Positions 5,600-21,295 are shown, counted from the stretch's first letter. The stretch is 64,000 nucleotides of DNA from Planctomycetaceae bacterium (GCA_021732845.1 JAKFUF010000126.1:1-64000), one strand, 5' to 3'. Notes: generated by a model not told the origin, from the letters alone. A program made the numbers and translations.

Positions 5600-7048
5600 T
5601 CAAGGGGCCGGTTCCAGCCGCAGCCGTCCGAGTTCCGCCCGGATCGCGAGTCCTGACGGACCGAGCAGTTGCTTTAAGATCTCACCCACGGTGGTGTCTT
5701 TCAGCGTGGCCGACTTGACCACCAGGGGTTGTTGCAGCGCTGCCGCCGCCGGCCCGAGCTGGGCCGCATCAAACTCCACCGGCACCCCCACAATCTCGGC
5801 GACCTCCTGCAGCACCAACCCCAGCGGAGCCGCCTTCGGAAACGTGTAACTCACGACCGGCTGGCTCAGAGCCGCATCGATTTCGGCGACAGTCTTAAGC
5901 CGAATCGCCACCGCCTGTGGCTCGGGCGTGAACTCGGGTTCAATCGGGCGTTCCAATTCCTTCTGAGCCAGCGGCACGGGGGCCGGAACTTTCTCGTCGG
6001 ATCCGTCATTCATCGCCGCCATCCGCCGCACAACGGTCGGATCGGCCTTTGTACTCACAGACACCACCCGACCATCGGCCATCAGCACAAACATCGAATC
6101 TGCCTGCCCCGTGCCAAATCCGTCGGGACCGCCGACGTACGGTTCTCGGGCCAAGGGCCGGATGGTGGCGGCACCACCCGCCGCCCACGAACCAAGCTGA
6201 TCCTGCACGCCGGCCACGAGCATGGTGTTCGCCAACCCATCGCGAATCTGTTCCACCCGCGTGGCTCGGTCGTTGGCAAAGATTCCCGCCCGGGGATGGT
6301 CCACTGGAAGCCGCGGACCGTCACTGCCCACGCCAGCGATCCCCACGAAATGTCCGGCTGGATATCCGTCGACACCGGTCAATGCCGGAATCAGCGGATT
6401 CTGCAATGTTGCCACCCGCCGCCGTACAAACGCCTCATTCAAAGGATCCTGCCAGCCACGCTCCTTGAGAATCGGGAATTTCCCCTCGGGGTCCAGCGTC
6501 CCCATCAAGTCCACAAGCCAACTGAACCGTTGTTCGACCGCCAGTTTGGAGCCCGCGCCGCCGATTGTCCCCGCCGGAAAATCACCATGAATCTTGCGCC
6601 ATGCGGCCAGAGCCTCGCCAATGTTCTCGAGCCGTTGTTCCGGTTCGGTCTTGGGCAAAGGCTTTTTCTCGACCGCCTTTTTTTCAACCGTCTTGGGTTT
6701 CTCGGAATCGAGCTGTGGGACTTTGTCGCCGGGCTTCTCTGTCGTCGCAGCGGGCGGAATAACTGACGGTGATGGCCCAAACGCCTTATAGCCGGCGAGC
6801 GACACCGCCAGCACGACATTGACACCCACAACAGCCAGCACCCAGCGTCTGCGCCTGCTTGGGGACACTGGTGGTGCTGGATTGAGGACAGGTGCATTCC
6901 GCTTCTCGGCCACCAGTTCGCCAGCCTGACCGACAATCACCACCGGCTGCGTGCATTCCGGGCAATCAAACTGTCGGCCGATTGACAGTTGATCGCGGGT
7001 TTTGAGCCGCGCGTGACAGTGCGGACAGACAAAATGAAACGGGTCCAT
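5600..7048 (-). CDS. Zinc-ribbon membrane protein with DUF1559-like domain
   Basis: The 482-residue protein opens with two CxxC pairs (FVCPHCHARL and DCPECTQP), a small zinc ribbon. One membrane helix follows (WVLAVVGVNVVLAVSLAG, residues about 69-86), then a Lys/Glu/Pro-rich linker. The central domain has features of planctomycete DUF1559 (SBP_bac_10) proteins: LENIGEALAAWRKIHGDFPAG, FSWLVDLMG, an IRDGLANTMLVAG segment and ADSMFVLMADGRV. The C-terminal ~100 residues (VAEIDAALSQPVVSYTF... LVLQEVAEIVGVPVEF) resemble a secretin/TonB short N-terminal (STN-like) module. The protein is likely anchored with the zinc ribbon in the cytoplasm. Its exact function is unknown. Confidence 0.7.
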   Translation of the reverse strand: MDPFHFVCPHCHARLKTRDQLSIGRQFDCPECTQPVVIVGQAGELVAEKRNAPVLNPAPPVSPSRRRRWVLAVVGVNVVLAVSLAGYKAFGPSPSVIPPAATTEKPGDKVPQLDSEKPKTVEKKAVEKKPLPKTEPEQRLENIGEALAAWRKIHGDFPAGTIGGAGSKLAVEQRFSWLVDLMGTLDPEGKFPILKERGWQDPLNEAFVRRRVATLQNPLIPALTGVDGYPAGHFVGIAGVGSDGPRLPVDHPRAGIFANDRATRVEQIRDGLANTMLVAGVQDQLGSWAAGGAATIRPLAREPYVGGPDGFGTGQADSMFVLMADGRVVSVSTKADPTVVRRMAAMNDGSDEKVPAPVPLAQKELERPIEPEFTPEPQAVAIRLKTVAEIDAALSQPVVSYTFPKAAPLGLVLQEVAEIVGVPVEFDAAQLGPAAAALQQPLVVKSATLKDTTVGEILKQLLGPSGLAIRAELGRLRLEPAP

Positions 7049-7176
7049 GAGGCATGCAGAGCCTGGGGGCGATTGGCAGCATCTACAAACAATGTATCCG
7101 GAACCGTTCGGAGTGCGAATGGAAGTTCTCGACGGCCACTTCGCCCGTTTCAGTCACACACTTCGACGTGCCGCCG

Positions 7177-9834
7177 TTACGACCACCCCTTCATGAACTG
7201 TTGAATCTGTCGGAAGAAGACACTGCCGGGGACGGTGCCGATCCCGCCGACAAAGAAGGCGGAGCCTGTCATGCGGCCCATGGAATCCATCGCCGCCAGC
7301 GCACCCTCGCCCGGCAGGACGAGGGTCACTTCGGCCTGAGACTTGTCCACGGGGCACAGATGCAGCATCCCGCGAGAGTCCAGAAAGATCCGGCTGCCAT
7401 CCGGGCCGCGTGCGGAGTGCAGGGTGTAGCGTGCCCCCGCGGGACTTAGCGCGGGTTGAAAGCGGACAATTTGAGCGTCGGTCCGAGGCTGGGCGGCCTG
7501 CGGACTGAGTACCAGTGACATGCCATCGGGGGTGAGCTGCACATGAACCGGATGCCCCTTCCGCCCGATCAGCACCAACCGGCCCTGAGTGTCGCGGTAA
7601 ACTCCGCTGAAGTGGGTGCGGAGACTGCGGTCGACGAAGAGCTGGGCGATTTCTGGTTCGAGGAGTGCCGGGATGTTGCTGCTGCTGACCGCGGTCTTTT
7701 TCGCCGCATCAATGAGATACGACATGCGTTCGCTACGAACATGCGCCCGCTGGAAGTCTCTGGAGACAGCCACGAGTTGCAACTTTCCGGCGACCGCCAG
7801 CCTCGTCGGCATTGTTTCCTCTGTACTAAACAGCTCGCCATTGGTGGTAAGGACAATCGGACCGCTACCGAACAACAGCGCGATCGGCTCATGTTGTGGC
7901 TCAAGCTTCAAGGGCAGGTCAAACAACTCACAGTCGTTGGTGCTAAAACCGAACCACCGGCTTTTCCCTTTGAGTTTGAAAAAGTTGTGAAACTCCCACT
8001 CAAAATCGCGTGAAATAGTGCCTGCATGTACGCAGCTTGCGGACTCAAGATCAAGGCTGTAAAGATTCTCGCCATCTATGATCAGCAGTCGGCCATGGTC
8101 CTGTGAAACACCTTTCGGCTGCCGTCTAAGCTGCGGAATTTCAAGCTGTTGTATTTCCGTCCCCTCCACCAACTCGCAACGTGTCAGCCGCGCGGGGTGG
8201 GTGTTGCTGGGGCCGCTGAGGGCGTAAGCGGCGGTCTCGGTGAAGCCGAGCCACAGGATGGTACGGCCGGGGAGCCTGTCGGTGAGTTGCGCCGCGGCCC
8301 AGCCGACTTTCTGCCACAGCATCAACCGGCCGTCGGTCGTGGCTGTCAGCAGCCCATGGCGGGATGAATACCGCATTCGCGACGGTTCTGGCCGGGGGTG
8401 AGGCAGGAGCAGCGGTAGCCGGGGCATCGACAACAGGACCGGCAGGTCGGGGTCGACATTCTCGGCGATCAGCGTTCGTGGCTGCTGGTCCACATCCGCC
8501 AGGCTGAGCCTCGCCCGCGCAAGCGATTTTCTCTCCCTACGTGTCACGGCCCACAGCCGGTAGTCGCCTTCGCGGTTGACCGTCGCCACCAAGATCGGCC
8601 GCGACAGTTCGGCCAAACTGCTCTGGAAATCGTGGTCTTCAAACGCCTCATCGCTGGTCACCAGCAGCGCGTCGGCAGCCTCGCCGGCCGCTTCCCCGCT
8701 CTGCTCAAGCTGCTCGATGAACGGCGGCAGCACCGCTCCTGGATGCATGGTCGTGGAGAGGATCTCGAGTGCCTTCAACAGCCCCTCGCGCGTGGTCAGG
8801 TCGAAGGGTAACAGCTCGTCATCGGCCGGCAGAAACGCCCTAATTGCAGAGGCTTTATCCGTGTTGGCGGCCAATGCGAGTGTCACCGCCATGGCGAACA
8901 CGCGGGGCACGCCCCACAGCCGCAGGCCGTTGTCCATGAGCAGGAACCGGCGGCCCGGCGGGTTAATCGGCGGCGTCTCGCGACGCAGATAGAGCGCTTC
9001 ATTGAGGGCCACGCGGACGGCGAGCGTCAGGTCATCGTGGGCCAGTTCGCTCAGCAGCAACCGGTCGAGTGAACCCCGGTTCGACAGGTCGGAGACACCG
9101 CCCACCGGCACATCGTCGCGGCTGGAAATCGGCCGCGGAACATACACCGCCGCCAACAGATTGCGGGCCAGCCGGGCCAGTCCCGACAGTTCCTGGTCCT
9201 GCAGCAATTCCTGCAGGAGTTCCTGGACGCGCAGCGATGTGGGGGTTTCGACCTCCGCCTCCGCCGGGACCTCCTCCAGACCCGTGCGGCGGCGTGGCTC
9301 CCAGGTGCTGGGGTCAAAGTCCAGCAAAACTTCGTCAAACGCATGAAACGCCTGGGCCGAAACCCGGCTGCCGCGTGAGGGAGTCCGCAGCGGCACGAGT
9401 TCCTGCGGCGGCAGCAGCTTCAGTCCCTTGGCAATCAGTTCGGAATCGGCAAATAGCAGGCGGGTTCGCGCGGACTCGAACAGGGCTTCGATCAGTTCGA
9501 GCTTGGCGGCGAGCGGCAGGCGTTGGGCGTCGGGCACTCTCCGCCATGCCTGCAGCCGTTCAGCGATCTTAGCTTCGTCGGAGGATTTGCGGCGAAAATT
9601 GAGCCACTGGGTTGCCCCAGCGGGGTCTCGGCAGAGGGCCAGCGCCAGCACCACCGCGCCAAAGGGGGGCAGGCCACGGGCGGCCAGCCTCTCCACCACC
9701 TCACGCACTTCCGGCATGAAGGCAATCGTGGTCCCGGAATTCCAGGTGATCACCGAGCCTTCGTCCTGCCAGCGCCAGAACGAACAGTCGTCGGCCTGCA
9801 GATATTCGCGGGCCCGCTCGATCGGCTCAGGCAT
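7177..9834 (-). CDS. Large MoxR-system protein: degenerate VWA-like region plus C-terminal beta-propeller
   Basis: An 885-residue soluble protein and the last gene of a tightly overlapping operon (start 8 bases inside the preceding gene). The ATG at 9834 was chosen over an upstream GTG-type start because MPEPIERAREYL begins the conserved-looking part. Residues 1-300 are alpha/beta with Leu-rich helices. Residues about 325-420 include RFLLMDNGLRLWG followed by helices and strands of a VWA-like fold. The MIDAS DxSxS is not present (DNGLR instead), so metal binding is doubtful. Residues about 450-870 are a run of short beta-strands with repeated W/Y-R-L-W blade-like turns (EGDYRLWAVTR, DGRLMLWQKVGW). 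I read these as a divergent beta-propeller. With the AAA+ and small proteins upstream, this fits MoxR-VWA-bpX ternary systems. The exact bpX subfamily cannot be assigned by eye. Confidence 0.65.
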   Translation of the reverse strand: MPEPIERAREYLQADDCSFWRWQDEGSVITWNSGTTIAFMPEVREVVERLAARGLPPFGAVVLALALCRDPAGATQWLNFRRKSSDEAKIAERLQAWRRVPDAQRLPLAAKLELIEALFESARTRLLFADSELIAKGLKLLPPQELVPLRTPSRGSRVSAQAFHAFDEVLLDFDPSTWEPRRRTGLEEVPAEAEVETPTSLRVQELLQELLQDQELSGLARLARNLLAAVYVPRPISSRDDVPVGGVSDLSNRGSLDRLLLSELAHDDLTLAVRVALNEALYLRRETPPINPPGRRFLLMDNGLRLWGVPRVFAMAVTLALAANTDKASAIRAFLPADDELLPFDLTTREGLLKALEILSTTMHPGAVLPPFIEQLEQSGEAAGEAADALLVTSDEAFEDHDFQSSLAELSRPILVATVNREGDYRLWAVTRRERKSLARARLSLADVDQQPRTLIAENVDPDLPVLLSMPRLPLLLPHPRPEPSRMRYSSRHGLLTATTDGRLMLWQKVGWAAAQLTDRLPGRTILWLGFTETAAYALSGPSNTHPARLTRCELVEGTEIQQLEIPQLRRQPKGVSQDHGRLLIIDGENLYSLDLESASCVHAGTISRDFEWEFHNFFKLKGKSRWFGFSTNDCELFDLPLKLEPQHEPIALLFGSGPIVLTTNGELFSTEETMPTRLAVAGKLQLVAVSRDFQRAHVRSERMSYLIDAAKKTAVSSSNIPALLEPEIAQLFVDRSLRTHFSGVYRDTQGRLVLIGRKGHPVHVQLTPDGMSLVLSPQAAQPRTDAQIVRFQPALSPAGARYTLHSARGPDGSRIFLDSRGMLHLCPVDKSQAEVTLVLPGEGALAAMDSMGRMTGSAFFVGGIGTVPGSVFFRQIQQFMKGWS

Positions 9835-10606
9835 CGGCCGGCTCCCCTGAAGCTGATGCCGAGGCCGACACCGAATCCCGCGCTGCACTCCGCGTGGCTC
9901 GCACAAAACTCTCCGCGCGCACCAGTTCGATCGACAGCCCGGCTTCACTCTTTGTCATCAGCGCCAAATCGTGGTCATGCAGCCGCAGCCGCTGCTTCAA
10001 GACCACACCCGGCACCGCTGGCGACCACGCAAAACCTGCGGGAACCGCCACCCGTGCGGCTTCGTTCAAGACAAACCGGTCACCAGGCAACGGAGGCAAT
10101 GGATGTCCCAACAGCACACAGCGGCCATCCTGATGCAGGGCAAACGACAGCGGTCGCAGCCGGATGGCCGGTGCGGCGATCGCGTAGTCGCGCCAGACTG
10201 CTCCCGAAGTCACCAGAACGTTGGCATCTTGAAAATCCACCGCGGCAACCAGCCGCAGGGCGACGCCGGGCTGTGGTTCGTTGCCCGCCATCAGGGCAGG
10301 CTGAACCGTGAGTTTGAGCCACGCGGAGAGCGCCATCCACTGTGCCTTCGGGATGTACCCGCTTGGGACCCGGCTGCCCGTCGCGATCAACTGGCCATCG
10401 TCCAACAGTTGGTACAATCCCGTCAACGGCAACCGCCTGATCGTGGCTTCAACTTCCTTGCTCCACTCGGTCCCCCGCAGCCACGCCGCGCCTGCTGCGG
10501 TTTCCGTGGCTTTCACGAGGGCGACCGACAGCGCGGGTTCAAGCCGCACGGTGCCCAGTGAGGCGACGTCCTCCAGTTTGAGCCGCGCGGCCCAGGCGGT
10601 GCTCAT
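9827..10606 (-). CDS. Small bpX-like partner of the MoxR ATPase
   Basis: A 259-residue protein between the MoxR ATPase and the propeller protein, overlapping both: ATGA with the ATPase stop at 10603-10606, and 8 bp with the next gene. The start at 10606 was chosen for that overlap; the longer frame has no better signal. It begins MSTAWAARLKLEDVASLG. Two W/G-rich segments follow: WLRGTEWSKEVEATIRRLP, and LPGDRFVLNEAARVAVPAG followed by FAWSPAVPG. An Ala/Ser-rich tail ends the protein. The LPG...Y/F-V...PAGW-x-W/SP pattern resembles the small bpX domains of MoxR ternary systems, from memory of the family and without a search. There is no signal peptide or membrane segment. Confidence 0.6.
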   Translation of the reverse strand: MSTAWAARLKLEDVASLGTVRLEPALSVALVKATETAAGAAWLRGTEWSKEVEATIRRLPLTGLYQLLDDGQLIATGSRVPSGYIPKAQWMALSAWLKLTVQPALMAGNEPQPGVALRLVAAVDFQDANVLVTSGAVWRDYAIAAPAIRLRPLSFALHQDGRCVLLGHPLPPLPGDRFVLNEAARVAVPAGFAWSPAVPGVVLKQRLRLHDHDLALMTKSEAGLSIELVRAESFVRATRSAARDSVSASASASGEPADA

Positions 10607-11790
10607 GAAGCGGCGCTGCCTTCTGCCGCCGTGTTGCGGACCAAAGGCCAAATCGCGGTCAGCTTCTGCTTCAAGAACTGCCGCTGCTGCGCGTCGGCCA
10701 CCCATTCAATCCGCCCGGCCAGCGCACCCAACTGGTCTCGCACGCGCGAGCGGTCGGCCTCGCCAAGTTGTGGCTCTCCCAACCGCGTCTGCAATGTTTC
10801 CAAGTCACGTGCGAGGCTCTCCGGATCAGGCCGGTCCAACGCTCGTGCACGAGGGTGCGCATCGGCGGAAGGCTCCAATCCATCCAGCACATTTTGCACG
10901 AGGGCCGCCAAGACTTCGCGCTGTTCTTCGCGATCCCACAAGTGGCGAAAGATCCACAAGTCGGACAGAATGACCTTGGTCCGTCCGCTGATCAGGGCAC
11001 TGGCCGCGAGCAGCCGCTGGAGCTTCACGGTGCGGCGGTCGGACAATGGCACGCCCGCGCGGCGGACCTTTAGCACCAGGTCGCAATACGCTTCGCGGAC
11101 GCCCGACAAGTCGACAGCCGGCGTCAGCATCTGCAGTTCACGGATGTCGTCAATGCTGACTGTCGGCGGCAGCGGTGCCGTGCTGCGAAGGCTGACATCC
11201 AGTTTCCAGCCTGCTTCCACAACATCCGCCAATCGTTCCTCTGGCACATTGTCGCACTGCACGCGCAGCAGGAACCGGTCAAACAGCGCCCCCAGGGCCT
11301 CGTCTTCTGGCAGCCGGTTGCTGGCCCCCACAACCATCAGCAACGGCAACTTCCGCGTCTCGCGACCACGGCGAAACACCCGCTCGTTCAGCACCATCAG
11401 CAGACTGTTGAGAATCGCGCTGTTGGCGTTGAGCAGTTCGTCGAGGAACACGAGCGATGCTTCAGGCAGCATCCCCTCGGTGTTGGTGACCAGGTCCCCT
11501 TCACGCAGCTTGCGGATGTCGAACGGCCCAAACAGTTCGTTGGGTTCGGTAAACCGCGTCAGCAGGTAATCGAACATCCGCCCTTCGAGTCGGCGGCACA
11601 AGTCCTGGACGAGCGCGCTCTTGGCGGTTCCCGGCGGACCAAGAATGAACAGGTTCTCGCCTGCCACGAGGCTCACGCCCAACAGGTCGATCACCTCGTC
11701 CTTGCCGACGAACGCCGCCTTCATCGGATCGAGAACATCCCGCGTCAACCGCCGTCCCAGTTCCAGGCGGTCGTCTGTGGAGAGTGCCAT
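10603..11790 (-). CDS. MoxR-family AAA+ ATPase
   Basis: A 395-residue AAA+ ATPase. Walker A GPPGTAKS is at residues 51-58, Walker B LVFLDE at about 113-118, sensor-1 GASNRLPED follows, and the arginine finger lies in ALFDRFLLR. 'TRFTEPNELFGPFDI' is the characteristic MoxR/RavA strand after Walker A. The C-terminal lid and a helical tail complete it. MoxR ATPases act as chaperone-like remodellers together with VWA-domain partners. Here it is the first gene of a three-gene operon, followed by the small bpX-like and propeller proteins with stop/start overlaps. The ATG at 11790 (MALSTDDRLELG) is preferred to a start six codons upstream. Confidence 0.9.
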   Translation of the reverse strand: MALSTDDRLELGRRLTRDVLDPMKAAFVGKDEVIDLLGVSLVAGENLFILGPPGTAKSALVQDLCRRLEGRMFDYLLTRFTEPNELFGPFDIRKLREGDLVTNTEGMLPEASLVFLDELLNANSAILNSLLMVLNERVFRRGRETRKLPLLMVVGASNRLPEDEALGALFDRFLLRVQCDNVPEERLADVVEAGWKLDVSLRSTAPLPPTVSIDDIRELQMLTPAVDLSGVREAYCDLVLKVRRAGVPLSDRRTVKLQRLLAASALISGRTKVILSDLWIFRHLWDREEQREVLAALVQNVLDGLEPSADAHPRARALDRPDPESLARDLETLQTRLGEPQLGEADRSRVRDQLGALAGRIEWVADAQQRQFLKQKLTAIWPLVRNTAAEGSAAS

Positions 11791-11919: not shown

Positions 11920-12526
11920 TCACGCCCTTTGGCATCGGCGCTGGTGTGGCTCGCGACTTTGATACCACCGGCTGTGTGCCACGGCGTCAGACATGGAAAC
12001 CTCGGCATTCTGCCAATTCTCCTCTGGTTGCGACCCCACCACCCGCACTTCGCCTCCATACGCCTCCACCACCTCCCGGCCGACGACTTCCTCCGTCGTG
12101 TAGGTTCCGCCCTTCACCAGCACATGTGGCTTCAAACTTCTCAGCAGGGCACGGGGTGTCTCGTCGGCGAAGATGACGACATGCGTGACACAGCCCAGGG
12201 CGGCGAGCATCGCCGCGCGGTTGGCTTCGTGGATCACCGGCCGGTCCGGCCCCTTCTGGCGGCGGACGCTGGCGTCGCTGTTGACTCCCACAATCAGCAC
12301 ATCGCCCAGGCTGGCCGCCTGCTGCAGCGTCTGCGCGTGGCCCACATGCAGCAGGTCGAAGCAGCCGTTGGTGAAGACGATCCGCTGCCCACCAGGCGGT
12401 AGGCGTCGCCGATGCGGGCCAGTTCATCGGGTGTGACCTGCTTCGCGGCGGAGACATGGGAGCGTCCGGCCATTTCGAGTCTGATCTCGGCCCACGAGAC
12501 CGGAGCCACGCCGAACCGTTCGACTT
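11920..12526 (-). pseudogene. hldE: hldE (rfaE) remnant: end of heptose kinase domain plus adenylyltransferase domain, broken
   Basis: Reading the minus strand from 12526 gives the end of a heptose-7-phosphate kinase domain (EVERFGVAPVSWAEIRLEM), then a linker (VTPDELARIGDAYRLV). After a one-base shift comes the nucleotidyltransferase domain: GQRIVFTNGCFDLLHVGH, LGDVLIVGVNSDASVRR, PHVLVKGGTYTTEEVVG. The frame breaks in the G run at 12388-12390, where one extra G would restore it. The rest of the kinase domain is missing: it is replaced at 12526/12527 by the right end of a transposable element. The C-terminal tail after YGGEVRVVG also looks unlike the family. The intact enzyme makes ADP-heptose for lipopolysaccharide core. 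This copy is very probably dead, though the adenylyltransferase domain (11920-12345) is still an open frame. Confidence 0.8.
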
Positions 12527-12844
12527 CCAGTGGCTGCACCTCGTCTCCCGTACCGCACCCTCTTCCGCTCCGCCGCTGGCCGCCCCTCCAGCCTGCAAGA
12601 CGAAGCCACGCGCCGGGAGAAACGCTGGCTTCAGGGCAGCGTGTCCGCCCGACAGGTGTTCGCGTAAGCAGGCTCTGCAGCGCTTCGCTGGACTTCGACA
12701 CCAATCACTTCAGTCCATCGCTCTTGGCGTCAACGGTCCGTCCGGCGCTTTGCGCCAGCTCTCCTCCAGGAGATGCCACGAAGCCATGTTTCATCGACTT
12801 CCCACAATCTGTTGCCCTCCCAATAATCAATGGGTGGCCCTTTT
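12527..12844 (+). mobile_element. Right-end fragment of the Y1-transposase element (copy C), fused to broken hldE
   Basis: 12527-12666 matches the last ~45 codons of the complete transposase at 15007-16173 (WLHLV..., RPSSLQDEATRREKRWLQG, ARQVFA then stop). It is slightly diverged, with a small indel near 12550. 12667-12844 matches the element's conserved non-coding right end, finishing in CAATGGGTGGCCCTTTT. Beyond it (12845-12925) the terminus sequence CAATGGGTGGCCCTTTTCAG occurs a second time together with TTTTCAGGCCTTCC tandem copies. This suggests nested or repeated insertions. The left part of the element is absent. Confidence 0.85.
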
Positions 12845-13901: not shown

Positions 13902-14012
13902 ATGCTAAAGGGAATTTTCTTGGCCTCGAAGCTCGAAAACGTCACTGTGGATGAAAGTATTCCACTAATGGTTGCGCACTGGAAGCGGCGAATGGCCAGT
14001 TTCAGTCAATAA
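13902..14012 (+). other. 36-codon open frame between element ends, possible displaced gene tail
   Basis: Reads MLKGIFLASKLENVTVDES, then IPLMVAHWKRRMASFSQ and a TAA stop. It directly follows the left-end fragment and is followed after six bases by another ATG frame (14019). That spacing mirrors the tail-plus-next-gene arrangement at 14311-14405. It is too short to identify; coding status is uncertain. Confidence 0.3.
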
Positions 14013-14018
14013 ATTAAC

Positions 14019-14083
14019 ATGACTTTTGGCATCCAGTGCGATGATCCGCCAAAGATGGATGAAGTGGTTATAATTCAATGTGA
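14019..14083 (+). pseudogene. N-terminal stub of a small gene truncated by an element right end
   Basis: An ATG at 14019 starts MTFGIQCDDPPKMDEVVIIQ. After about 21 codons the sequence becomes element-derived (14084 onward aligns with 16141 of the complete copy). The reading frame then runs on meaninglessly through the element end. Composition and spacing from the preceding stop (six bases) suggest the start of a real small gene whose remainder was lost or separated. Confidence 0.4.
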
Positions 14084-14293
14084 GGCAGCGTGTCCGCCCG
14101 ACAGGTGTTCGCGTAAGCAGGCTCTGCAGCGCTTCGCTGGACTTCGACACCAATCACTTCAGTCCATCGCTCTTGGCGTCAACGGTCCGTCCGGCGCTTT
14201 GCGCCAGCTCTCCTCCAGGAGATGCCACGAAGCCATGTTTCATCGACTTCCCACAATCTGTTGCCCTCCCAATAATCAATGGGTGGCCCTTTT
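14084..14293 (+). mobile_element. Right-end fragment of the Y1-transposase element (copy D, right)
   Basis: Aligns with 16141-16350 of the complete copy: the last eleven transposase codons (GSVSARQVFA stop) plus the whole conserved right end, to CAATGGGTGGCCCTTTT. It is followed by two copies of a TTTTCAAGGCCCCC unit. The same kind of short tandem (TTTTCAGGCCCTCC) follows the right ends at 12844 and 16350. It appears to be part of the terminus. Confidence 0.85.
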
Positions 14294-14912: not shown

Positions 14913-16350
14913 AAAAGGGGCCATCCATTATTTATTGACTTTTTGAAAGATGGCCCGTAATCTGCCTCGAAGCTTTGCAGTTTTCCTCCCAGATTCGGAT
15001 GCTGTCATGCCCCGTTTGCCGCGTGCGATGGTTGTCGATCCCGTGGATGTCGGCGTGTACCACTGCATCAGCCGGTGCGTGCGGCGGGCGTTTTTGTGCG
15101 GGGTGGACGCGGTGTCGGGCAAATCGTTCGAGCACCGAAGGCAGTGGATCCAGGACCGGATGCGGTGGCTCGCGGGGATCTTTGGCATCGACGTGCTGGC
15201 CTTCGCGGTCATGAGCAACCATTTGCACATCGTTTTGCGGAACCGGCCCGATGTGATCGCCGGCTGGTCCGACGACGAAGTCGCCCAGCGGTGGTGGCGG
15301 CTGTTTCCGTTGCGGCGCGAACCCGATGGTTCGCCCGCCGAACCGGAGGATCACGAACTGCAAATGCTCGTGGCTCGGGTCGCAAGCCTGCGGTCGCGGC
15401 TGGCGGATGTCTCGTGGTTTATGCGGTGCCTGTCGGAGGGTATCGCCCGCCGCGCCAATCGTGAGGACGACTGCACCGGCCGCTTTTGGGAGGGCCGCTA
15501 CAAGTGCCAGCCATTGCTGGACGAGGCCGCGATCGTCGCCTGCATGGCGTATGTCGACCTCAACCCCATCCGCGCGGGGATCGCCGCCACGCCGGAAGCC
15601 AGCACCTTCACCTCGGCGCATGAACGCATTCAAGCGGAGGCTCCGACACCGCTCCCCCAACCCAGCGTGACTCAAACCCCTCCGGTTCAGACCCCTACCG
15701 CTCAGGCAACGAGCGCGCAAAGCACAACGAAGACTCCGACCGCCACGCCAGCCACCAGAAAGACGAAAACAACCGCCGCCGCCGGATTGGCGCCGCGCCT
15801 GATGCGGCGCGATGACTGGCTCGCGCCGCTGGAGCTGGCATCGACACATGCAGAAGAACAAGCCACGCCAGTGCCGCTGGGCCGGGCCTCGAACCGTGGC
15901 TGCCTACCGCTGACCCTCGCCGAATACCTGCAACTTCTGGACTGGACCGGCCGCCAGATCCGCCGCGACAAGCGCGGAGCCATCCCTGCCGACCTCGCCC
16001 CAATCGTCCTCTGCCTGGGAATTCTCCCCGACCAGTGGCTGCACCTCGTCTCCCGTTACGGCACCCTCTTCCGCTCTGCCGCCGGCCGCCCCTCCAGCCT
16101 GCAAGACGAAGCCACGCGCCGGGAGAAACGCTGGCTTCAGGGCAGCGTGTCCGCCCGACAGGTGTTCGCGTAAGCAGGCTCTGCAGCGCTTCGCTGGACT
16201 TCGACACCAATCACTTCAGTCCATCGCTCTTGGCGTCAACGGTCCGTCCGGCGCTTTGCGCCAGCTCTCCTCCAGGAGATGCCACGAAGCCATGTTTCAT
16301 CGACTTCCCACAATCTGTTGCCCTCCCAATAATCAATGGGTGGCCCTTTT
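14913..16350 (+). mobile_element. Complete Y1-transposase element with imperfect terminal inverted repeats (copy A)
   Basis: The left end AAAAGGGGCCATCCATTATT and the right end (CCAATAATCAATGGGTGGCC CTTTT) are imperfect inverted repeats of about 25 bp. They share CCAYCCATT-type cores and TTATTG. Between them lie a ~94-bp leader, one transposase gene (15007-16173) and a ~177-bp non-coding right end. Copies of the ends, with or without the gene, occur at 12527, 13801, 14084, 21399 and 22517. Short tandem TTTTCAGGCCCTCC units follow the right end. IS200/IS605-type elements normally lack such inverted repeats, so the boundary definition is mine. Confidence 0.75.
15007..16173 (+). CDS. IS200-like (Y1/RAYT-type) transposase, copy A
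   Basis: 388 residues from ATG 15007 (MPRLPRAMVVDPVDVG), the same start as in the second copy. The N-terminal Y1 HUH domain is clear. VGVYHCISRCVRRAFL is followed by FAVMSNHLHIVLR, with the HxH metal-binding pair at residues 72 and 74. RFWEGRYKCQPLLDE and YVDLNPIRAG follow. These features are shared with REP-associated tyrosine transposases (RAYTs) and their large planctomycete relatives. A Thr/Pro/Ala-rich low-complexity linker (about residues 215-265) joins a C-terminal domain of ~110 residues ending RRDKRGAIPADLAPIVLC... ARQVFA. It nicks and joins single-stranded DNA in the family. It is intact and flanked by both element ends, so possibly active. Confidence 0.88.
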   Translation: MPRLPRAMVVDPVDVGVYHCISRCVRRAFLCGVDAVSGKSFEHRRQWIQDRMRWLAGIFGIDVLAFAVMSNHLHIVLRNRPDVIAGWSDDEVAQRWWRLFPLRREPDGSPAEPEDHELQMLVARVASLRSRLADVSWFMRCLSEGIARRANREDDCTGRFWEGRYKCQPLLDEAAIVACMAYVDLNPIRAGIAATPEASTFTSAHERIQAEAPTPLPQPSVTQTPPVQTPTAQATSAQSTTKTPTATPATRKTKTTAAAGLAPRLMRRDDWLAPLELASTHAEEQATPVPLGRASNRGCLPLTLAEYLQLLDWTGRQIRRDKRGAIPADLAPIVLCLGILPDQWLHLVSRYGTLFRSAAGRPSSLQDEATRREKRWLQGSVSARQVFA

Positions 16351-16606
16351 CAGGCCCTCCTTTTCAGGCCCTCTTTAGTTAGGCCCTTTCGTCGCGGAAG
16401 GGCACAACTGAAATGGCCGCGCATCGATATTGGCGGACGGCAGACCGCGTCTTCTGAATCAGACCGCCGACAGATGCGCGGCACAGGGGCAGCAATATGT
16501 CCGAGTTGCCTTCTTCGCCTTTTTGAGACTAGACTCTTCAAATAATCCAATCCCGTCATCGAGTTGCGCGTTCAGTCAAGACTCGCGATCGAGGTCCATT
16601 CCGCTC

Positions 16607-19600
16607 ATGCCTTCGAATTCAAATCGCGATCAAGCTCGAAATTCACCTCTCTCTCCGCCACTGCTCGAATTGTTGACAGCCGTGACCGAGGGGGCGCCGG
16701 ACGCACTGTTTGTCAAAGACGTCTGCGGTCGGTACTTATTTTGTAATGCCGCGGGAATAAAGCTTGCGAATCGAACGCGTGAGCAGATTCTTGATCAGGA
16801 CGACTTCACCATATTTGGGCCTGATGCGGCGCGGAGCATGCGGGCGCAAGACCAGCGGGTGATGCAAACGGGTATGCCGGAAACGGAAACGCATGTCATC
16901 AAGGCGGGAAGTGATACTCGCGCACTCCAAGTGATGACCAAACCCTACTTGGATCGCCATGGTCAGTTGCAGGGCGTGATCGTGATCACGCGGAACTTTG
17001 TGGACACCGTGACGTGGAATAGCTCGCATGGCGTGAGTTTAGCTCCAGCGGCAGGCGACGATTCCGAACGAATGCGGTCCGCATACAGGTTGCGGGAGAG
17101 CGAACGCCGATTGGCGGACGCACAGCGGATCGCACACATTGGCAGTTGGGGCTGGGAACCCTCGAATGGCAAAGTCTGGTGGTCGCGCGCGGTGTACGAA
17201 TTGCTTGGCGTTGATCCACAAGCAATCCGGCCCAGCTTTGAAGCATTCCTCGAACTGCTGCATCCTGAGGACCGTCCGAAGGCTCTCGGGCGGGTCGAAG
17301 CGATGCTCGGAGGCAAAGATCGCTTTGATGATGACCTGCGGATCATCCGCCCTGACGGCCAATTGATCTGGCTGCACAGCCAGGCCGTTGCCACGCGTGA
17401 TGTCAACGGAACGATTCTGCGTGTCGAGGGGACGCATCAGGACATCACCGCACGCAAGCTTGCCGAGGCGGACGTCCGGGCCAGTCAGAAATTCGTGAAG
17501 GCGGTTGCCGAGACATCCCCGCTGACAATTTACGTGTTCGACCGCCAGCAACAAGCAATAATTTATTCAAATTATTATATCGTGGAGGATCTGGGTTTCA
17601 CGCCGGAATTGATTCAAGGTTGGAGTTGGGCCGAACTCGCGGCCCTGGTCCATCCGGATGATTTCACCAACGTGACGAGGCTCCTCGAACGTTGGGAAAC
17701 CGCCGACGACCAACAAATTCTGCTGGCGGAATATCGCCTGCGGGACGTTCATGGAAACTGGCGTTGGTTCATCAGCCGGGATCGGGTGTTTGAGAGAACG
17801 TCCGATGGTCGGGTCAGCCAGATCATCGGCACGGCCGAAGACATCACTGAGCGAAAGTCGACCGAGCAATCACTGCGAGAGAGCGAACAGCGATTTCGCG
17901 AACTGGCCGACGCCATACCGCAAATCGTCTGGGTCGCAGCGCCGGATGGCGGGTTGACCTACCTGAACGCCAAGGCGACAGAGTACACCGGCGTCGGTAT
18001 GGACCAGCTCACCGGGTGGTCTTGGGGGCGGGTCATTCATCCCGAGGATTTGCCGGCCACGATTGAGCAGTGGACGGCGACACTTGAGCAGGAACTTCCC
18101 AGAGACATGGAATTCCGAATCCTCCGGACAGATGGCACCTGCCGCTGGCACATGACCCGCCAAGTGCCCGTGCGCGAGGCTTCGGGGGCCATTGCGAGGT
18201 GGTACGGCACCTGCACTGATATCGAAGATCTCAAGCGGGCAGAACAATCCCTTCGGGACAGCGAAGTGCGATTTCGCCTGCTGTTCGAGGGTGCGGCGGA
18301 CGCCATTTTCTGGGCCGATCCTGAAACAGGACTGTTGCTCGAGTGCAACCATGCTGCCGAAGAGCTGCTCGGTCGAGATCGATCCGAAATTATCGGTCAG
18401 CCGCAGGCATTTCTTCATCCGCCTGAAGAGGCGGACCGTTATCGCGAGATGTTTCGACTGCATGCGAGTGCACAGTCGACTGCCGCGATGGAACTCGTGG
18501 TGCAACGAAAAGACGGTCGCCGGGTCGACGTTTCCATATTGCCTTCGGTCACGCTCATCAGCGGGCGGCCAGTGATTCAAGGAATATTTAGGGACATTAC
18601 CGAGCGCAAACAGGCGGAGTGGCGTGTCCTGAAGAGCGCCGAATTTCAAGAGACCATCATTCGGACAGCAGCGGAAGGGATCTGCGTCTGTTTTTCTGCT
18701 CCAGAGTTTCCCTTTGTCCGCTTCTCGGTCTGGAACAACCGGATGATCGAGTTGACGGGATATACGCAGGAAGAGATCAATCGCCTGGGATGGTATCAAA
18801 GTCTGTATCCAGACCCAGACGTGAGGAGGCAGGCTGAGCTCCGCATGGAGCAAATGCGGGAAGGAGACGACCTACAGGCGGAGATTTGGGAGATCATTCG
18901 CAAAGATGGAATCGCGCGTGTGGTAACCATTTCGACGTCGCGTGTCGAAATGGAGAGCGGCGTGACCGGGGTTGTGGCCATGATCCAGGACATCACCGAA
19001 CGCAAACGTGCTGAAGCGGAGTCGCGGAAAGCGGCGGGATTGCTGCATGCCGTCGCAGAAGGCACTTCTGACGCAATCTTCGTCAAGGACCGGGACGGCA
19101 AGTACCTTCTCGCGAACCAATCGGCTTGCCAATTCGCCGGCAAGCCGCTTGAGCATGTCTTGGGGAAAGATGATAGCGTGCTTTTTGACGCGGAGGGTGC
19201 TCGTATGGTGTTGGAAGCCGATCGCGAGATCATGCAGTCAGGCCGTCTGAAAACATCGGAAGTGACGTTGACGGCCAACGGCGTGACGCGCAGCTTTCTT
19301 TCGACCAAGGCACCCTATCGCGATGAATTGGGAAATATCATTGGCGTGATCGGCATCTCTCACGATATCACAGCCCGCAAAGAGGTCGAACGCAGGTTGC
19401 GATTGAAAAAGTTCAGCGTTGACCACGCGGTCGACTCTGTGTTTTGGATCAACTCTTCCAGTGAGATCTTGTATGTCAACGCCGCCGCCTGCCGCACGCT
19501 GGGCTACTCGCGCGAAGAAATGCTCGGGAAAATGGTATCAGACATTGATCCGAATTTTCCGCCAGAGGCTTGGCCGGCCCACTGGGAAGAACTGAAGCGC

Positions 19601-21295
19601 CGCGGGTCATTCACGTTCGAGTCCGACCATGCGACCAAGGACGGCCGGATGTTGAACACGGAGGTCACGGTCAACTACCTGCAGCACGAAGGCTGCGAAT
19701 ACAACTGCGCCGTGATGCGCGACATCACAGAACGCAAACGGTCCGAACTCGAGATTCGACAATCACTGTCGCGGTTGCACGCCACATTGGAGTCGACGGC
19801 CGATGGGATTCTCGTCGTCGACCTGGAAGGCCGCATCGTCGATTTCAATCAGCAATTCATCATGATCTGGGGTTTTCCCCTGGAGATGATCAACGAAGCT
19901 CGCAAGTCGGATGTCATCGCTTCGTTCAACGATCATCAAGCCATTCAGGAGATGCTCGCTCAATTGCAGGACCCGGACGGCTTTGTCCGGCGGGTTCGGG
20001 AGATGTTCCAGGACCGTGAAAAACATTCTTTCGATGTGCTGGAATTTAAAGATGGCCGGGTGGTTGAGCGGTTCTCGCGGCCTCAGCGGATTGACGGTCG
20101 ACCGGTAGGACGCGTCTTGAGTTTTCGCGACGTTTCAGAACGCCGGCAGTTGGAAGCGCAATTGCGGCAGTCGCAGAAAATGGATGCGGTCGGACAATTG
20201 GCCGGCGGCGTGGCTCATGACTTCAACAACTTGCTGACGGTCATCAATGGTTACTGTGAACTGGCGCTTTCGGAAATCTCGTCCAACCATCCGCTGAGGG
20301 AGTTTCTGTCCGCGATTCGGCACGCCGGAGAACGGGCGGCCGCACTCACCCGCCAACTCTTGACTTTCAGTCGCCGAGCAATTGTCTCACCTCGGCAGAT
20401 TGACCTGAACGAGGTGATCGAGTCAGCCACCAAGATGCTTCGCCGGGTCATCGACGAGGACATCGCCCTGGTGACAATCCTCACACCAACCTCGTGCATC
20501 GTGCAGATTGATCCAGGACAGTTTGAGCAGGTGATCATGAATCTGGCGCTCAACGCCCGGGATGCCATGCCACAGGGGGGGCGGCTCACCATTAAGACGA
20601 ATGTGGTGGAGCCACCAACGACTGACCCGGCTTGCAACGACAGGTTTGTGCAGTTGCTGGTGACGGACACGGGGAGCGGGATGACAGACGAGGTGCGGTC
20701 ACGCATCTTCGAGCCGTTCTTCACCACCAAGGGTGTCGGTAAAGGCACCGGGCTCGGCCTGGCTACGGTTTACGGCATCATCGCGCAGGCTGGCGGGCAC
20801 ATTCGAGTCGAGTCCGAATTGGGCTTGGGAACGACGTTTGCCATCGTGCTTCCGGAGATGCAGCAAGCATCGAACAGACAGGCGTCCGACGACCGACAGG
20901 TCGCCCCGCGGGGCACCGAGACGATCTTGCTGGCCGAGGACGATGATCGGGTCCGCCGGCTAACTCGGCTGATGCTGGAAGCGCAGGGCTATGTGATCCT
21001 GGAATGTCAGTCCGGTCCAGCCGGATGTGCCCTCGCGGCCGCCCACCAGGGGCCGATTCACCTGCTCGTGACGGATGTGGTGATGCCTGACATGGGAGGA
21101 CGGGAACTGGCCGCTGTGATTCGCCGCGACCGTCCGGAAGTCCGGGTGCTGTTTGTGAGCGGATATACGGACGGCGCGCTGGTGCGACGCGGTGTGGAGG
21201 CCGAGGTGGAGGCGTTTCTACAGAAGCCGTTCACCCCGTTGACGCTGTCCCGCAAAGTCCGGGAGGTGTTAGACGCCGCCCCGCAAGGCGGGTGA
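16607..21295 (+). CDS. Hybrid sensor histidine kinase with nine PAS domains and a receiver
   Basis: A 1562-residue cytoplasmic sensor kinase with no membrane segments. I count nine consecutive PAS modules, most ending in the PAC signature DITERK or DITARK. A HisKA domain follows ([13 protein letters not shown], phospho-acceptor His1204), then HATPase_c ([36 protein letters not shown]). The C-terminal receiver domain has phospho-acceptor Asp1490 in [13 protein letters not shown] and Lys in LQKPF. The ATG at 16607 is preferred; an upstream TTG would add a non-conserved leader. Three PAS modules carry HPED/HPDD loops typical of PAS_3. The receiver suggests it feeds back on itself or relays to an unlinked phosphotransfer protein. 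No response regulator is adjacent. It sits between two element insertions. Confidence 0.9.

Follow-up and report, generated by a model that had tools for sequence, protein, structure and literature searches.

A planctomycete β-propeller MoxR-vWA operon with two further components of its system encoded elsewhere in the genome

Introduction

The closest described relatives of the locus analysed here are the β-propeller MoxR-vWA ternary systems, subsystem 4 of Kaur et al. 2020 (PMC7159879), whose characteristic families are entered in Pfam as bpMoxR and bpX0 to bpX4. Systems of this kind are predicted, named and widespread. A variant P-loop, GXXXTAKS, has already been reported for them, the majority of their vWA components carry both bpX0 and bpX1, and their third component is described as having a variable N terminus that contains a transmembrane segment (PMC7159879). 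A role in conflict was proposed in the same study, where the authors inferred it from architecture (PMC7159879). We found no experimental studies of bpX or bpMoxR proteins in the literature that was covered, many subscription papers lying outside this coverage.

Here we describe a member of this class in a stretch of 64,000 nucleotides from a Planctomycetaceae bacterium (GCA_021732845.1, JAKFUF010000126.1:1-64000), referred to below as the window, and compare it with related loci and with the rest of the genome from which it comes.

Results

A first-pass annotation had described three overlapping minus-strand genes in the window, in the order MoxR, small protein, large protein, and had assigned them to the ternary systems that combine MoxR, bpX and vWA/propeller proteins. 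The reading frames, the overlaps and the Pfam matches all confirm this arrangement. The first gene (10603-11790, minus strand) codes for a MoxR AAA+ ATPase of 395 amino acids (P0003; bpMoxR, PF20030), the second (9827-10606, minus) for a bpX2 protein of 259 amino acids (P0002; PF19918), and the third (7177-9834, minus) for a bpX0/vWA-like/β-propeller/bpX1 protein of 885 amino acids (P0001; PF19915 and PF19917). The MoxR and bpX2 genes overlap by 4 bp (10603-10606), and the bpX2 and large-protein genes by 8 bp (9827-9834). Both lengths are ordinary for the β-propeller MoxR-vWA family, in which the same 4-bp overlap is found at 40 of 91 loci and the same 8-bp overlap at 17 of 85. The gene order MoxR-bpX2-vWA/propeller recurs in Planctomycetota, Verrucomicrobiota and Bacteroidota, so that the three genes do co-occur in other planctomycetes, as had been expected of them. 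Pfam families and the published description (PMC7159879) agree on the assignment, and the operon is a real member of this already described class.

The MoxR protein matches bpMoxR with E=3.9e-99 (330 bits against a cut-off of 27). Its ATPase motif set is complete, with the Walker A sequence GPPGTAKS (an instance of the GXXXTAKS variant), the Walker B sequence VFLDEL, a sensor-1 asparagine in GASNRLP, the arginine of a DRF motif and an SDRR motif, and the motif residues are conserved in a 10-member alignment. The closest solved structure is RavA (E=3e-56). Identification as RavA itself was rejected, as the score was 164 bits against a curated cut-off of 681.

The large protein matches bpX0 over residues 34-125 (E=2.3e-12, 47.9 bits against a cut-off of 27), the match covering only positions 1-104 of the 161 in the profile, and bpX1 over residues 808-881 (E=8.2e-11, 42 bits against a cut-off of 27). 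An AlphaFold model built with 62 homologues (pLDDT 87.7) begins with a helical region, followed by a vWA-like stretch of alternating strands and helices at residues 295-442 and a C-terminal β-propeller. The strand pattern of the model places the propeller at approximately residues 480-848 (7291-8397, minus), where it covers most of bpX1. Propellers in the PDB were matched by Foldseek with E-values down to 5.7e-8, and WD40-type propellers by VIA with Z about 10 over residues 475-834. These three results support the earlier suggestion that the blade-rich C-terminus is a β-propeller; counting strands in the model suggests about seven blades.

The vWA-like part is less clearly defined. A conserved block, GGVSDxxNRG...SELAxDD...NEALYLRRE, precedes the vWA-like core, the two together occupying residues 236-450 (8485-9129, minus). 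The alternating order of strands and helices in the AlphaFold model fits a vWA domain with an altered MIDAS motif. Profile comparison with ordinary vWA domains gave a probability of 3%, which is not significant, with the register as expected. Neither Foldseek nor VIA listed a vWA entry among the matches of the large protein, but these lists were filled by the propeller and barely probed the vWA part. A profile search of the PDB with the vWA region gave a single match, to an aminotransferase (E=0.005), which was rejected as implausible. The earlier VWA-like call thus agrees with the strand and helix order and the altered motif, but has no independent fold match to solved vWA domains; we call the region vWA-like on the basis of that order, the motif and the N-terminal block.

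The N-terminal block was matched by hhalign, with a probability of 97%, to the ivWA domain of FtsH-containing ternary systems, over the block and strand 1 only. Membership of the ivWA or FtsH type was rejected for the large protein, as PF19997 scored 14.3 bits against a cut-off of 35 and over only 25 residues. An ivWA protein of FtsH-type ternary systems is encoded elsewhere in the same genome (G000:C205:8235-8783, L171), and two classes of ternary system may therefore coexist there.

The MIDAS motif had been thought lost in this protein, with DNGLR in place of DxSxS, and a partner interaction unlike that of canonical MoxR-VWA pairs had been expected from this. Some members have already been reported to lack MIDAS aspartates (Kaur et al. 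2020, PMC7159879). The altered loop reads D301-N-G-L-R-L-W-G, and so does depart from DxSxS. However, D301, W307 and G308 are present in all 62 aligned members (62/62), and a basic residue, Arg or Lys, occupies position 305 in 58 of the 62; the DNGLR-LWG sequence is therefore an instance of a signature common to the entire family, D-x-[GTS]-x-[RK]-x-W-G. At position 394, which aligns with the second metal-site aspartate, just 8 of the 62 have Asp. Judged from the alignment, the MIDAS is remodelled family-wide with its first aspartate kept, rather than simply lost in the window, and the motif does not distinguish this locus from its relatives.

The bpX2 protein matches PF19918 with E=9.2e-46 (156.8 bits against a cut-off of 23.6). 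Its AlphaFold model (m5ab94ebcf26e) has a mean pLDDT of 92 and shows a ferredoxin/PII-like arrangement in the N-terminal 70 or so residues. Comparison of residues 1-71 with PII-type chains gave VIA Z-scores of up to 6.9 (rmsd 3.0, 70 residues aligned). As Z stays below 7 and covers residues 1-71 only, in the range expected for common arrangements, the resemblance was not taken as evidence of a relationship to PII. Foldseek searches of the PDB found no match at E<0.001, and despite the confident model no solved structure is a convincing relative of this predicted fold. Neither bpX2 nor the vWA/propeller protein received a useful name from PADLOC or NCBIfam. A search of the genome-contig collection with bpX2 as a single sequence gave no matches; a search with the MoxR alignment did.

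In relatives, the usual gene order is bpX4-MoxR-bpX2-vWA/propeller-bpX3, the last gene coding for a bpX3-TPR-propeller protein. Of the 67 loci whose flanking sequence was long enough to judge, all five genes stand in this order at 57, and several of the remaining 10 lack only bpX4 nearby. Neither bpX3 nor bpX4 was found beside the operon in the window. In the position where relatives have bpX3 there is a spacer (7049-7176, minus) followed by an unrelated gene for a 482-amino-acid protein (5600-7048, minus). Pfam gives this protein a DUF1559-type segment and, at its N terminus, a weak match of zinc-ribbon-like character.

Both missing genes were located elsewhere in the same genome, each as a single copy. 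The bpX3 gene (G000:C56:31811-34975, minus; L080:6811-9975) codes for 1054 amino acids that match PF19919 with 126 bits (E=2.8e-37) and the full-length profile with E=2e-170. The bpX4 gene (G000:C86:20128-20745, plus; L081:9128-9745) gives E=3.2e-44. Their neighbours are ordinary, a LutB-like gene near bpX3 and DUF1501 and DsbH genes beside bpX4. The operon is thus three of five parts, and the three genes can no longer be regarded as the whole system.

The genome assembly is a draft in 262 contigs, available without reads, so that wrong joins in the assembly could in principle have produced the apparent scattering. We consider such an artefact very improbable. The five parts lie on three contigs and none is at a contig end; the bpX3 and bpX4 sites have more than 10 kb on each side within their contigs, and the operon is 7 kb from the end of its own. 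Several wrong joins would be required, and independent assemblies within the same family show differing splits.

These splits were found in the window's family of 170 genomes. Of the 46 that have bpX2 or bpX3, 39 have both, and most sets are linked (25 + 2 loci). In G376, bpX4-MoxR-bpX2 lies apart from vWA-bpX3, and in G262 MoxR-bpX2 lies apart from vWA-bpX3. G297 has bpX4-MoxR-bpX2 apart from bpX3, G321 has bpX2 apart from bpX3, and G366 has vWA-bpX3 apart from bpX2. Because the breaks are at different joints, operon breakage in these five genomes, besides that of the window, probably represents several independent events. In a sample of 246 genomes from the phylum, bpX2 was present in 21, bpX3 in 22 and bpX4 in 22, and of the 23 genomes with at least one of these, 20 hold all three in single copy. 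Co-occurrence is imperfect, as some genomes, mostly drafts, are without one part. Pairwise distance matrices of MoxR, bpX2, vWA and bpX3 proteins correlate with r=0.83-0.92, values of a kind that shared ancestry inflates.

Two further loci were also noted. Verrucomicrobia bacterium LW23 (L140) has a bpMoxR-like gene with the other parts not nearby, and in a Thermoanaerobaculia MAG (L148) several kb separate bpX2 from the vWA gene.

The overlaps had been taken to imply strict stoichiometry. This is weakened by the related genomes, which hold the same parts unlinked. Repeated splitting at different joints instead argues, as far as gene arrangement can tell, that the five proteins would function together even where they are not co-translated.

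A different outcome of the same breakage would be decay, with the operon left as a remnant after separation from bpX3 and bpX4, its parts drifting and no longer forming one system. The vWA/propeller protein is short, at 885 amino acids against mostly 900-1020 in planctomycete relatives, its bpX0 match is partial, and its terminal branches exceed the median length. Members from Bacteroidota are even shorter, however, and all five reading frames are open, with family motifs kept and the ATPase motifs intact. The separated bpX3 and bpX4 also retain profile matches at E<1e-35. Decay is accordingly an improbable account of the locus.

Trees of the individual proteins bear on whether the system was acquired horizontally from a different group of planctomycetes, its genes being scattered later. 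FastTree and quick IQ-TREE analyses both put the vWA protein of the window and the unlinked bpX3 with largely the same members from outside the family, and FastTree likewise puts bpX4 with other families. MoxR and bpX2, on the other hand, do not clearly show this pattern, and AU tests, for which the groups were chosen after the tree was seen, do not reject placement on the family side (bpX3, p=0.34; vWA protein, p=0.476). We therefore do not claim a horizontal origin in the window lineage; it is not supported, and we think it unlikely.

The surroundings of the operon were also inspected. Just upstream is a cytidylyltransferase-like gene (11920-12600, minus; PF01467, HldE/RfaE nucleotidyltransferase-like), whose open frame lacks a usual start codon ahead of VFTNGCFD; either a mutation or a sequencing error seems to have shifted the frame. 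A 244-nt direct repeat is present in three copies (12551-12794, 14000-14243 and 16057-16300) that are 75-99% identical. The open reading frame amid these repeats (14950-16173) has no Pfam match, and we take it to resemble a REP-associated transposase. A gene on the plus strand (16430-21295) codes for a hybrid histidine kinase of 1621 amino acids, which has one receiver domain and some seven PAS domains.

Discussion

We consider it likely, with a probability of about 0.68, that the operon encodes three of the five components of a protein-remodelling machine of the MoxR type that works partly in trans. The MoxR ATPase would form a ring, and the bpX0/vWA-like/propeller protein would be its co-chaperone, docking a substrate or partner. 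bpX2 may serve as an adaptor between the two. The best candidate for the partner is the unlinked bpX3-TPR-propeller protein, a putative scaffold or sensor, and bpX4 would be an accessory part. On the model of MoxR-vWA pairs, the ring would hydrolyse ATP to remodel the partner held by the vWA/propeller protein. With bpX3 and bpX4 supplied in trans in this genome, translational coupling of all five would not be required. The outcome of remodelling may be defence, as has been proposed, or assembly for housekeeping or maintenance.

A mobile conflict (anti-invader) system, a role that would account for the patchy distribution, is a possibility to which we give less than even odds. Besides the architecture from which that role was proposed, it is favoured by the presence of the system in only about a quarter of the genomes in the window's family. 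Mobility is harder to reconcile with the database searches, in which the vWA/propeller protein had no match in 50,697 phage records and one, from Hymenobacter, in 72,556 plasmid records, and in which there was no noteworthy PADLOC family match. The system is single copy in nearly all genomes, and its genes are kept when scattered, unlike those of a module moving in one piece. These points speak against mobility, while a defence role may still apply.

The remodelling machine favoured here could also be framed more strongly, as an obligate machine of five bpX/MoxR parts, each kept by selection despite repeated operon breaks and serving cell maintenance in planctomycetes rather than acting as a mobile defence module. 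This version is doubtful, and we put it forward tentatively. Genomes that retain all the parts although they are unlinked offer evidence from nature that the five proteins form a set irrespective of the operon, and they lead to a clear prediction, that proteins whose genes lie far from one another should nevertheless bind and show a common phenotype. Neighbourhood searches would score the system of the present genome as incomplete.

Among described systems, the E. coli MoxR-vWA pair RavA-ViaA served as our working analogy, since it too consists of a MoxR ATPase and a vWA-type partner. It is a two-gene system, however, and is without bpX proteins or a propeller. With the FtsH-containing ternary systems (subsystem 3; ivWA, PF19997) the operon shares the block GG-hydrophobic-S...RG...SEL...NE-LY before the vWA core, and the P-loop variant of its MoxR protein is common to those systems as well (PMC7159879). 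It differs from them in having no FtsH component beside it, and the ivWA match stops short of the rest of the domain. The closest agreement is with subsystem 4, in the bpMoxR with GXXXTAKS, in the vWA-like protein with N-terminal bpX0, C-terminal propeller and C-terminal bpX1, in the adjoining bpX2 gene, and in the presence of a bpX3-TPR-propeller component in the genome. The predicted propeller, at about seven blades, would be larger than the "about four" of the published description (PMC7159879). Unlike the usual subsystem 4 locus, the operon is unlinked to its third component, bpX3, and to bpX4. Linkage is usual rather than obligatory, and because other members of the family are also unlinked, we do not take the separate third component as excluding this operon from subsystem 4.
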